Shown here: positions 27,006 through 30,273 of the stretch, piece after piece
Numbering within the stretch: position 1 is the stretch's first letter
Layout: every line of letters starts with the position of its first letter
Source: Acidobacteriaceae bacterium
GTDB lineage: Bacteria; Acidobacteriota; Terriglobia; Terriglobales; Acidobacteriaceae
Reading direction: 5' to 3'
Length of the DNA: 36,785 nt
Assembly: GCA_003156805.1 (NCBI GenBank)
Contig: PMHV01000044.1
Span: 1 to 36,785 of the forward strand
The notes under the pieces: model-generated
The model's database searches: none
The model's input: the letters and a program-made list of their open reading frames with translations, nothing else
What the model was told of the DNA's origin: nothing
Program-made: the position numbers and the translations under genes

Positions 27006-30000
27006 ATGCTTTCCGATTCCACCATCCTGAAACACATTGCGCGGCAGCCCAAGCGGGCGGCGGGATTCAAGCAACTGGTGCGCGAACTTGGGCTGCACGG
27101 CGCCGCGCGCGGAGATCTCGACGCGCATCTTCAAAAACTCGTCGCCAGCGGCGCGCTCCTGGCGGCTGGTTCCGATCGCTATGTGCTTCCGCAAGCCGCC
27201 GGCGATAAGAATGCGGACAAAAATCTGGTCGCGGGACGGCTTACCATGCATCGCGACGGATTCGGATTCGTCATCCCCGATGCGAATTCGCTCAGTCCGC
27301 AATTCAAGGCGCGCCTGGCGGGAGATATTTTCATTCCGCCGCATCTGATCGGCAACGCCATGCACGGCGACCAAGTGCTGGTTGACGTCAGCGCGATTCG
27401 TCCCGATGGCCGGGCTGAAGGACGCATCGTGAGGCCGGTGGCGCGGGCGCATCCCACCGTGGTGGGGGTGTTTCACTACGGCAGCCGCGGCAATTCCGTC
27501 ACGCCCATTGACACCAAGATTACGCAGGAGATTTTGATTCCGCCGGGAATGGAAATTCTCAATGGTAGCGTAGCGCCGCCGTCCCCCGCGGCTGTCGCGG
27601 GGGCGTCTCGTCCCCGCGGCCGAGGCAAGGATGCCGGCGAGGCGCCGGCGCTACGGAAGAAATCCGTCGATCGCGTGCTGGGCGAGGAAGCTGCGCCCCG
27701 CGCGGAGTGGGACGACCTCGAAGGAGTGGTTGTCGATGTGGAGATTACGGATTGGCCCACGTCGACGCAGAATCCGCGCGGACGCGTGATTGAAATTCTT
27801 GGCCGGGAAGATGATTTCGGAGTGGACGTGGAAATCACGATCCGCAAATTTCATCTGCCGCACCACTTTCCGGCGGCAACGCTGCGGGAAGCGCAGGATG
27901 CGCCGGCAATTATTTCCGAACACGACCTTCGGCGGCGCCGCGATTTTCGCGCGCTGCCGATCGTCACCATCGACGGCGAAACGGCGCGCGATTTCGACGA
28001 CGCGGTTCTCGTGCGCACGCTGGCGAACGGCAACTTTGAATTGCAGGTTCACATTGCCGACGTGGCCCATTACGTCACACTCGGAAGCGCGCTTGATCAG
28101 GAAGCGCGGCTGCGCGGCACCAGCGTTTATTTTCCCGACCGCGCCGTACCCATGCTGCCGCTGGAACTTTCCACCGACATTTGCAGCTTGCGCCCGCAAG
28201 TGGAGCGGCTGGTGCTCTCGTGCGTGATGGAGATCGACCACCGGGGCGAGATTGTAGGCTATGAATTGTGCGAAGGCGTGATTCGCTCAGCAGAGCGCAT
28301 GACGTATACCGCGGTGAATGCCGTGCTCGAAGGCGATGCTGCCGCGCGTGGGCGCAACGGGCCGCTGGTGGCCGGTTTTGAGCGGATGCGCGACCTGGCC
28401 ATGATTTTGCATCGCAAGCGGGAGCGGCGCGGCTCGATTGATTTCGATCTGCCCGAGGCGGTGATCGAGTTCGACGAGTTTGGGATGATGAAGAGCATTG
28501 CGCGCTCGGAGCGCAACATGGCACACCGGCTCATCGAGGAATTTATGCTCTCGGCCAACGAGTGCGTCGCGCAGTATCTGGAATCGAAGCGCGTCGCGTC
28601 GTTGTATCGAATTCACGAGAAGCCGGACGCCAAGCGCGTCTACGACTTTGAAGTGATTGCCGCAACGTTTGGATACTCGCTCGGCGTGGGAGCGTTGCCG
28701 ATTCATCGCGTGCAGCTCAAAACCGACCGCCGCGCCGCTTACGGAACCGGCAAGCGGGTGCGCGAGATCGAAGTGCCGAAAGAAGTTCACATCACGCCGC
28801 GCATGTATCAGAAGCTCACCGAGAAAATTGCGGGCAAGCCGGAAGAACGCATCCTGAGCTACCTGATGCTGCGGTCGCTGAAGCAGGCGCGCTATTCAGA
28901 GGAGAATCTCGGCCACTTCGCGCTGGCGGCCACGAGCTACACGCATTTTACTTCGCCCATCCGCCGTTATCCGGATTTGATCGTGCATCGGATTTTGAAA
29001 GATGTGCTGCGCGAGTCGGCCGAGCGGCATGATGGCGCGACTCCGATCGGAGTTTTTCCGGCACCTTCCGCCGATGTGAGAGACGGCCGCCTGTTGAAAG
29101 TATTCATCCAGAATGAAGCTGGCTCATTTGTTAAGCACATCCACAACGAAAAAACACTTGCGTTAACCGGAACAACCCAAGTCTCGCGAGCCTATCCATT
29201 TCCCTACGGATTCGTTCTCAACACAACCGCTGACGACGGTCTCAACGTAGACTGCTTCGTGATCACGGAAACGCCCTTACGCACAGGAGAAATCGTCGAG
29301 TGCCAACCGATCGCGCTCGCCGAACAAGTTGAAGATGGCCAGGAAGATCACAACGTTGTGGCGGTGATCCCGGGAGAAAAATCTCGTCTTGACCAGCGGG
29401 CACAGCGCAAGATCAGCGACTTCGTCACCCACGTATTCGACAATGTCGCGGGCAAAACGATCCGGGTCGGCGAGTTTCTTGGAAAGGAAGCAGCTGTTAG
29501 CTACCTGTCGCGACACGAAGACAACAGGGATCCTGGGCCAAATCTCTCGCAAGTGGGACGCCCCACGGATGTGCCTTCTCCGTGGTCGAAGCGCCGCGAC
29601 CACGCCGCGCACCGCGAAGCTCTCGAGCCTCTGGGCGGGCCGATCATGATCGACGAACTGCATGATATAGCCGACGAATCGAGCCAGTCCGAGCGGCGCG
29701 CCGACGACGCCGAGCGCGAACTGATGGCGTGGAAGAAGGTCAAGTTCATGCAGGACCGCGTGGGCGACGACTTTGACGGCCTTATCACCAGCGTGACCAA
29801 GTTCGGCTTCTTTGTCGAGTTGACCGATCTTTTTGTGGAAGGGTTGGTGCCGCTGGATACGCTGACCGACGACCGCTACGTCTATCACGAGAACACGCGC
29901 GAGATCATCGGCCAGCGCTCGCGCAAAACGTACCGCATGGGACAAAGGATTCGCGCGCTGGTGGACCGCATCGATCCGGTGGAAAAGAAAATCCAGTTCG

Positions 30001-30083
30001 CGGTACTCGATGAGAGCAGGCCGCTGCCTCCGCTATCCCGCATTACGCAGCCTACGCGCAAGTCGAAGCGCAGACGAAAATGA
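27006..30083 (+). CDS. rnr: RNase R with inserted pyrophosphatase-like domain
   Basis: RNase R is a 3'-5' hydrolytic exoribonuclease that degrades structured RNA to 5'-monophosphates. Domains: N-terminal helical/cold-shock region (about 1-300), RNB catalytic domain with DGETARDFDD at 323-332 (catalytic Asp cluster) and FTSPIRRYPDLIVHR near 655, S1 domain from about 919 (FDGLITSVTKFGFFVEL), and a basic tail ending KSKRRRK. The product is 1,025 residues; E. coli RNase R is about 813. Two insertions explain the excess: residues 189-217, encoded by an 85-bp palindromic element, and about 697-840, a family-I pyrophosphatase-like domain (KVFIQNEAGSFVKHIHNEK, YPFPYG, DDGLNVDCFVI, EDGQEDHNVVAV). In the latter, the middle Asp of DGDxxD is Leu746, and the usual YK pair near its end is not visible. 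Its DNA looks less GC-rich than its flanks. Confidence 0.9.
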   Translation: MLSDSTILKHIARQPKRAAGFKQLVRELGLHGAARGDLDAHLQKLVASGALLAAGSDRYVLPQAAGDKNADKNLVAGRLTMHRDGFGFVIPDANSLSPQFKARLAGDIFIPPHLIGNAMHGDQVLVDVSAIRPDGRAEGRIVRPVARAHPTVVGVFHYGSRGNSVTPIDTKITQEILIPPGMEILNGSVAPPSPAAVAGASRPRGRGKDAGEAPALRKKSVDRVLGEEAAPRAEWDDLEGVVVDVEITDWPTSTQNPRGRVIEILGREDDFGVDVEITIRKFHLPHHFPAATLREAQDAPAIISEHDLRRRRDFRALPIVTIDGETARDFDDAVLVRTLANGNFELQVHIADVAHYVTLGSALDQEARLRGTSVYFPDRAVPMLPLELSTDICSLRPQVERLVLSCVMEIDHRGEIVGYELCEGVIRSAERMTYTAVNAVLEGDAAARGRNGPLVAGFERMRDLAMILHRKRERRGSIDFDLPEAVIEFDEFGMMKSIARSERNMAHRLIEEFMLSANECVAQYLESKRVASLYRIHEKPDAKRVYDFEVIAATFGYSLGVGALPIHRVQLKTDRRAAYGTGKRVREIEVPKEVHITPRMYQKLTEKIAGKPEERILSYLMLRSLKQARYSEENLGHFALAATSYTHFTSPIRRYPDLIVHRILKDVLRESAERHDGATPIGVFPAPSADVRDGRLLKVFIQNEAGSFVKHIHNEKTLALTGTTQVSRAYPFPYGFVLNTTADDGLNVDCFVITETPLRTGEIVECQPIALAEQVEDGQEDHNVVAVIPGEKSRLDQRAQRKISDFVTHVFDNVAGKTIRVGEFLGKEAAVSYLSRHEDNRDPGPNLSQVGRPTDVPSPWSKRRDHAAHREALEPLGGPIMIDELHDIADESSQSERRADDAERELMAWKKVKFMQDRVGDDFDGLITSVTKFGFFVELTDLFVEGLVPLDTLTDDRYVYHENTREIIGQRSRKTYRMGQRIRALVDRIDPVEKKIQFAVLDESRPLPPLSRITQPTRKSKRRRK
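27570..27654. repeat. 85-bp palindromic element in RNase R gene
   Basis: The ends GTAGCGCCGCCG (27570-27581) and CGCCGGCGCTAC (27643-27654) are inverted with 11 of 12 matches. Inside is a perfect hairpin, CCCCCGCG-GCTGT-CGCGGGGG (27583-27603). The element is read in frame and encodes a Pro/Ala/Arg/Gly-rich loop (residues 189-217) in the second OB region of RNase R. Confidence 0.75.
29094..29526 (+). other. Pyrophosphatase-like domain inside RNase R
   Basis: This segment (residues about 697-840 of RNase R) aligns by eye with family-I inorganic pyrophosphatases, especially short members that begin xVFIQNEAGS. Matching elements are K710, YPFPYG (730-735), D744-G-L746-N-V-D749, LRTGEIVEC (758-766) and E776-D-G-Q-E-D781. 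Codon 697 is TTG followed by AAA GTA TTC, which could be the remnant of an original start codon. Base composition is visibly poorer in GC than on either side. Its two ends fall where the RNB domain joins the S1 domain in normal RNase R. Confidence 0.8.
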
Positions 30084-30196: not shown

Positions 30197-30273
30197 CGGG
30201 ACGTGGCTCAGCCTGGTAGAGCACTCGCTTGGGGTGCGAGGGGTCGGCAGTTCAAATCTGCCCGTCCCGACCA
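30197..30273 (+). tRNA. tRNA-Pro(GGG)
   Basis: This 77-nt cloverleaf has acceptor CGGGACG/CGTCCCG, D-arm GCTC/GAGC, anticodon arm CTCGC-TTGGGGT-GCGAG (anticodon GGG, codon CCC), T-arm GGCAG-TTCAAAT-CTGCC, discriminator A and encoded CCA. TAAAAT at 30137-30142 is a possible -10. Its last 50 bp (30224-30273) are repeated at 31421-31470 with one difference, which marks the tRNA as an integration target. Confidence 0.95.

Follow-up and report, generated by a model that had tools for sequence, protein, structure and literature searches.

The window, that is, the whole stretch of 36,785 nucleotides that was analysed, comes from a soil acidobacterium and encodes an RNase R of 1025 aa that carries a family-I inorganic pyrophosphatase (PPase)-like domain between its RNB and S1 domains. 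The fusion is a variant of RNase R and not a separate kind of system. The anatomy of the gene, the homology of the insert and its predicted fold, the insert-free linkers of relatives and a second fused protein were all observed directly. As a whole, these observations are best explained by the in-frame capture of a gene whose product, although now tethered to RNase R, is kept by selection for the same role as in its standalone relatives, an explanation that we favour with moderate confidence. The features are listed in Table 1.

Table 1. Features of the fused RNase R gene, with positions in the window
Feature	Position	Strand	Basis
RNase R gene with inserted domain, 1025 aa	27006..30083	+	TIGR02063, 725 bits (cut-off 597.85); ORF list
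OB/cold-shock domain 1, residues 77-144	27234..27437	+	PF08206, 59.4 bits
Cold-shock domain 2 (CSD2), residues 239-289	27720..27872	+	PF17876, 80.6 bits
RNB catalytic domain, residues 311-670, with DGETARDFDDA	27936..29015	+	PF00773, 369.5 bits
RNB-S1 linker, upstream part, residues 671-696	29016..29093	+	DNA homology to relatives ends at or before 29073
Stretch without DNA match in relatives: inserted gene and fast-evolving linker	29074..29566	+	blastn
Pyrophosphatase-like domain, residues 697-839	29094..29522	+	TTG at 29094 corresponds to Met of standalone relatives
Downstream linker (842-878 at low confidence), then a predicted long helix, 882-919, ahead of S1	29523..29753	+	Structure model; PSPWSKRRD
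S1 RNA-binding domain, residues 917-999	29754..30002	+	PF00575, 47.4 bits
C-terminal K/R-rich tail	30003..30080	+	Sequence

The host protein exceeds the NCBIfam cut-off for assignment to the RNase R equivalog family, and its reading frame is uninterrupted along all 1025 aa. The Asp residues of the RNB motif DGETARDFDDA, which we take to be catalytic, are intact, and residues 323-333 did not vary across the 43 RNase R rows aligned. The full-length structure model was poor (mean pLDDT 60.6, pTM 0.32, large parts of RNB below 50) except in the insert, the N-terminal region and S1; because of this, the low pLDDT of the linkers (below 50 at residues 678-692, with RNB poorly modelled as well) is weak evidence for disorder. 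Compared with typical RNase R (TIGR02063; RNB family exoribonucleases), the protein is alike in the N-terminal region, the cold-shock domains, the RNB Asp motif, the S1 domain and the K/R-rich tail, and differs by the separate domain of ~143 additional residues that lies between RNB and S1. In passages of PMC12320835, such a K/R-rich tail is described for RNase R and the active-centre aspartates are mentioned without positions.

A preliminary description, made from the sequence alone, had placed a PPase-like domain at 29094..29526, and profile search located it there: PF00719 matched residues 714-814 of the full 1025-aa protein (50.0 bits, E 3.7e-13, cut-off 23.5), and the score was 55.2 bits with the insert alone as query. 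Supportively, structure modelling predicted a family-I PPase fold for the insert. In the model, the domain comprises 149 residues, compared with 160-180 in most of the soluble family-I PPase chains listed, and unlike these enzymes it is fused inside another enzyme. The catalytic set of E. coli PPase, presumably E20, K29, Y55, D65, D67, D70, D97, D102, K104, Y141 and K142, is incomplete in the domain. K29, Y55, D65, D70 and D102 are kept, whereas E20 is replaced by Gln, D67 by Leu, K104 by Asn and Y141/K142 by Val/Phe, and D97 is Glu. As had been read beforehand, Leu746 stands in the alignments at D67, the middle Asp of the metal motif. The further claim that E31, R43 and the YK pair are not conserved proved right for E31 (I712) and for Y141/K142 (V810/F811), while the place of R43 was ambiguous in the alignments. 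Positions of E20, K29 and E31 were taken from a profile alignment containing two canonical PPases besides that of E. coli (the filter kept 2 of 29 loci); the MAFFT alignment to E. coli PPase misplaces N-terminal residues. The putative ligand positions K710, D744, N747, D749, E776, D781 and H782 are retained. Because the acidic metal positions and one lysine are kept and other PPi-site residues are gone, a nucleotide-like phosphate ligand seems likelier than PPi.

The insert was delimited by comparing the DNA with that of 29 relative loci, of which L075 is a fragment. Upstream matches stop at or before 29073, downstream matches restart at or after 29567, and no blastn match at E <= 1e-3 was found over 29074-29566 in these loci. 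The predicted location of the insert was confirmed, and the unmatched DNA, at least 29074-29566, is slightly wider than its predicted extent. The sequence TTG AAA GTA TTC at codon 697, previously interpreted as an old start, was found at 29094. The TTG codon of Leu697 is one base from ATG, Met occupies its position in 101 of the 120 listed standalone relatives, and 84 of the 120 have no residue aligned immediately before it. At the other end, the alignment of the 120 listed standalones frays right after residue 839, and the downstream linker resumes with PSPWSKRRD, a motif common to insert-free relatives. In relatives, the RNB-S1 linker, parsed by pattern in 116 of 119 proteins, spans 54-125 aa (median 77) without the domain. 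The proposed in-frame capture of a whole gene is supported by both ends of the standalone alignment, with Met at the named codon, and by these domain-free linkers.

The insert is also less GC-rich than the rest of its gene, as it had appeared beforehand. Its G+C content is 52.4% and its GC3 58.7%, against minima of 57.3% and 65.0% in 598 overlapping 143-codon windows of the gene not touching the insert. Because CSD2 in the same gene, a shorter stretch of 51 codons, is equally low in GC3 (58.8%), the low G+C is suggestive only. For the genus, the word foreign was supported, with the family in 0 of 44 other genus genomes at E <= 1e-20. Certain peptides recur among the RNase R linkers that relatives have (P0122-P0240; loci L049-L077), AGVPPA-type in 17, VEER-type in 8 and RRDAGA-type in 6 of 116, which suggests short repeat elements that may insert in frame. 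Since the linker is variable and carries such recurring peptides, the site seems tolerant of insertions.

A search with the insert returned 458 proteins at E <= 1e-10. The 120 of these that were listed (P0002-P0121), short proteins termed inorganic pyrophosphatase, are separate proteins of 141-207 aa that share the signature of the domain at 58-69% identity. Named organisms among these 120 are Acidiferrales (3) and Angelobacter (1), all four acidobacterial, and the nearest hit of a genome scan was a standalone gene with 64% identity in the acidobacterium palsa_278; eight more distant standalones (42-51% identity) are labelled as other groups. Because both the named standalones and the nearest genome hit are of this kind, the donor was probably another acidobacterium. 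The replacements at the E. coli site are widespread among the 120 listed standalones: Leu at D67 in 87, Asn at K104 in 102, Gln at E20 in 101, Val at Y141 in 118 and Phe at K142 in all 120. Of the eight relatives with labels of other groups, six were tabulated; Asp is present at D67 in five of these and Lys at K104 in two. Given the prevalence of the replacements in the listed standalones, the classic PPase site was mostly lost before capture. The earlier expectation that the domain may be inactive or reduced therefore describes mainly a trait of the standalone subfamily, with Leu at D67, rather than decay after fusion. By eye, no common partner gene was found beside the standalones in the ORF lists of nine loci.

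Other sources were considered. A viral-contig scan with alignment A2, weak in that it used two short patterns only, gave 44 pattern matches, 0 of them confirmed, and a viral source was rejected. A viral structure library gave one match at E <= 0.001 (best E 7e-4); the top matches had probability 1.00 and TM below 0.5, and some were named phage inorganic pyrophosphatase domain proteins, which fits the InPase domains of phages being distant kin, rather than the source, of the domain. A plasmid source was likewise rejected: tblastn found 23 records (20 listed) at 28.8-31.5% identity, and the annotated genes there are ppa. The InPase (PF18823) of phage polyvalent proteins is similarly a PPase-type module within large multidomain proteins, for which Iyer and colleagues suggested nucleotide-like substrates or PPi clearance (PMC5512222). 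The fused domain of the window had no PF18823 match at E <= 0.01, 25 of 66 members of alignment A2 did match, and several phage proteins named inorganic pyrophosphatase domain match the domain model weakly. In that paper, InPase is described as lacking the beta-hairpin after strand 1, whereas the domain model has, after strand E2-7, the two strands E13-17 and E24-29.

The fusion is very rare. Among the 120 top-ranking of 7998 scored RNase R hits (database: 5.8 billion proteins), one, P0001, carries PF00719; a search with the insert region, covering 912 candidates of suitable length, likewise gave P0001 as its only hit at E <= 1e-3. The search proposed beforehand for RNase R homologues of about 1,000 residues with the same insertion thus found one: P0001, a different protein of 1100 aa from a metagenomic relative, with the same RNase R-PPase fusion, is 84% identical to the window protein in RNB and 63% in the insert. 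At genome level, the family was found at E <= 1e-20 in 1 of 45 genomes of the genus sample, the own one; in at least 2 of 399 class genomes, own included, a lower bound with nine candidates per genome scored in nearly all rows shown; and, at E <= 1e-25, in 2 of 396 phylum genomes, own included, with all candidates scored in the rows shown. An RNase R core was present in 52 of 61 genomes, own included, and all of these except the own one had open frames of at most 935 aa. Among the nearest RNase R proteins, some carry names that indicate Candidatus Sulfotelmatobacter. No report of an RNase R fused in this way was found in the titles, abstract beginnings and selected passages of the open-access literature.

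Next, the relation between the two fusions was evaluated. Both have Ala770, which is present in 21 of 120 standalones, and in both the insertion lies in the same region; both also lack His813, with Asn or Ser there, residues seen in 0 of 120 listed standalones. In the free insert tree, the two fusions fell into different groups (SH-aLRT 81 and 85), whereas the tree in which they were held together had a higher likelihood. A sister relation was not shown by the trees, but neither was it rejected on the insert (p-AU 0.83, 122 rows) or on the RNase R core (p-AU 0.49 with 30 rows, one row dropped; p-AU 0.71 with 58 rows). The 58-row core tree was built from every fourth of 119 RNase R proteins, with three loci left out, under a simpler model, and its free form placed P0001 on a long branch at the base of the genus. 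Full-length matches in insert-free genus genomes are 85-91% identical, compared with 84% for the RNB of P0001. These sequences would be compatible with several losses, with one transfer, with a sister that evolves fast or with two captures. Should the fusions not be sisters, fusion may be recent, and less could be read from the conserved columns.

Constraint was judged from protein columns. At the 50 columns with conservation of 95% or more among the 120 standalones, P0001 differs at one and the window at three, more than the standalone median of one; over all 142 columns, differences from the majority numbered 42 in the window and 49 in P0001, compared with a standalone median of 36 and a maximum of 55. 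Because differences at conserved columns are few and overall divergence lies within the standalone range, the fused domain resembles a protein under constraint, and decay after fusion is unsupported by the conserved columns. The place of His813 (His in 118 of 120 standalones) is the sole column of this conservation changed in both fusions, which fits relaxed or changed function.

Under the favoured explanation, a complete acidobacterial-type family-I-PPase-like gene of ~150 aa would have entered, in frame, the length-variable RNB-S1 linker of a Candidatus Sulfotelmatobacter-like lineage. The insert would fold independently and hang off the nuclease via flexible linkers, and with this arrangement RNase R presumably remains active. 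Selection would keep the domain for the function of its standalone relatives, which is probably to bind or hydrolyse a nucleotide-like phosphorylated ligand at the remaining metal site and not to hydrolyse PPi in bulk, a task that the cell's membrane H+-PPase could cover. Tethering would put this activity where RNase R works on RNA and ribosomes. Such a capture would be a clean natural example of a whole gene taken up inside a major nuclease that is not visibly broken, and one in which donor family, start codon and sites lacking the insert can all be seen; it also draws attention to a soil-bacterial family of short PPase-like proteins that lack several PPase residues. If the domain acts with RNase R, a new activity in RNA or ribosome turnover would follow. 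A more specific reading, that the tethered domain is a metal-dependent phosphohydrolase or a sensor of a nucleotide-like ligand working with RNase R and that the same linker was entered twice, is a long shot; if true, example targets would be the short 5'-triphosphorylated end products left by a 3'-5' exonuclease, or a nucleotide alarmone.

The main rival is that the domain is a nearly neutral passenger in a tolerant linker, useless to RNase R and conserved since misfolding inside RNase R would be harmful. The high variability of the linker with its recurring peptides, the very rare distribution of the fusion and the loss of His813 in both fusions agree with such a passenger, whereas the retained putative ligand positions and the divergence of both fusions inside the standalone range argue against it, and we regard it as unlikely, though to be taken seriously. 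An active pyrophosphatase clearing PPi at sites of RNA turnover is improbable. It would account for the retained fold and four acidic positions and for the lack of any other PF00719 protein found in the own genome, and PPi clearance is one role proposed for the phage InPase domains in PMC5512222; against it stand the replaced D67, E20, K104, Y141 and K142, together with an H+-PPase in the own genome (one) and in 26 of the 27 genus genomes that are at least 90% complete. RNase R, moreover, yields NMPs and not PPi, and the earlier remark that a catalytic partnership with RNase R is not obvious still stands. To an assembly chimera we give hardly any credence: the genome is a draft (5.03 Mb, 75 contigs, 95% complete), but the frame is open throughout, the PSPWSKRRD motif of the lineage resumes downstream, and the same fusion occurs in P0001, a second, different protein, for which reason this explanation was set aside.

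The co-occurrence of H+-PPase with the domain in 11 of 11 carriers was discarded as having little meaning, since nearly all genus genomes have H+-PPase anyway. Apart from the fused domain, no PF00719 PPase was found in the own genome, nor in 5 of the 26 other genus genomes that are at least 90% complete; these five include G007 and G011, which have an RNase R close to that of the window. One genus genome has two PF00719 matches, G441:C372:49157-49591 and G441:C463:63426-63866, with one and three internal stop codons, respectively, which are possibly pseudogenes. The own genome encodes a second RNB-domain protein in an open frame of 503 aa (G000:C74:44637-45626), and RNase R is followed closely by a tRNA-Pro (ggg) gene, at 30197-30273 of the window.
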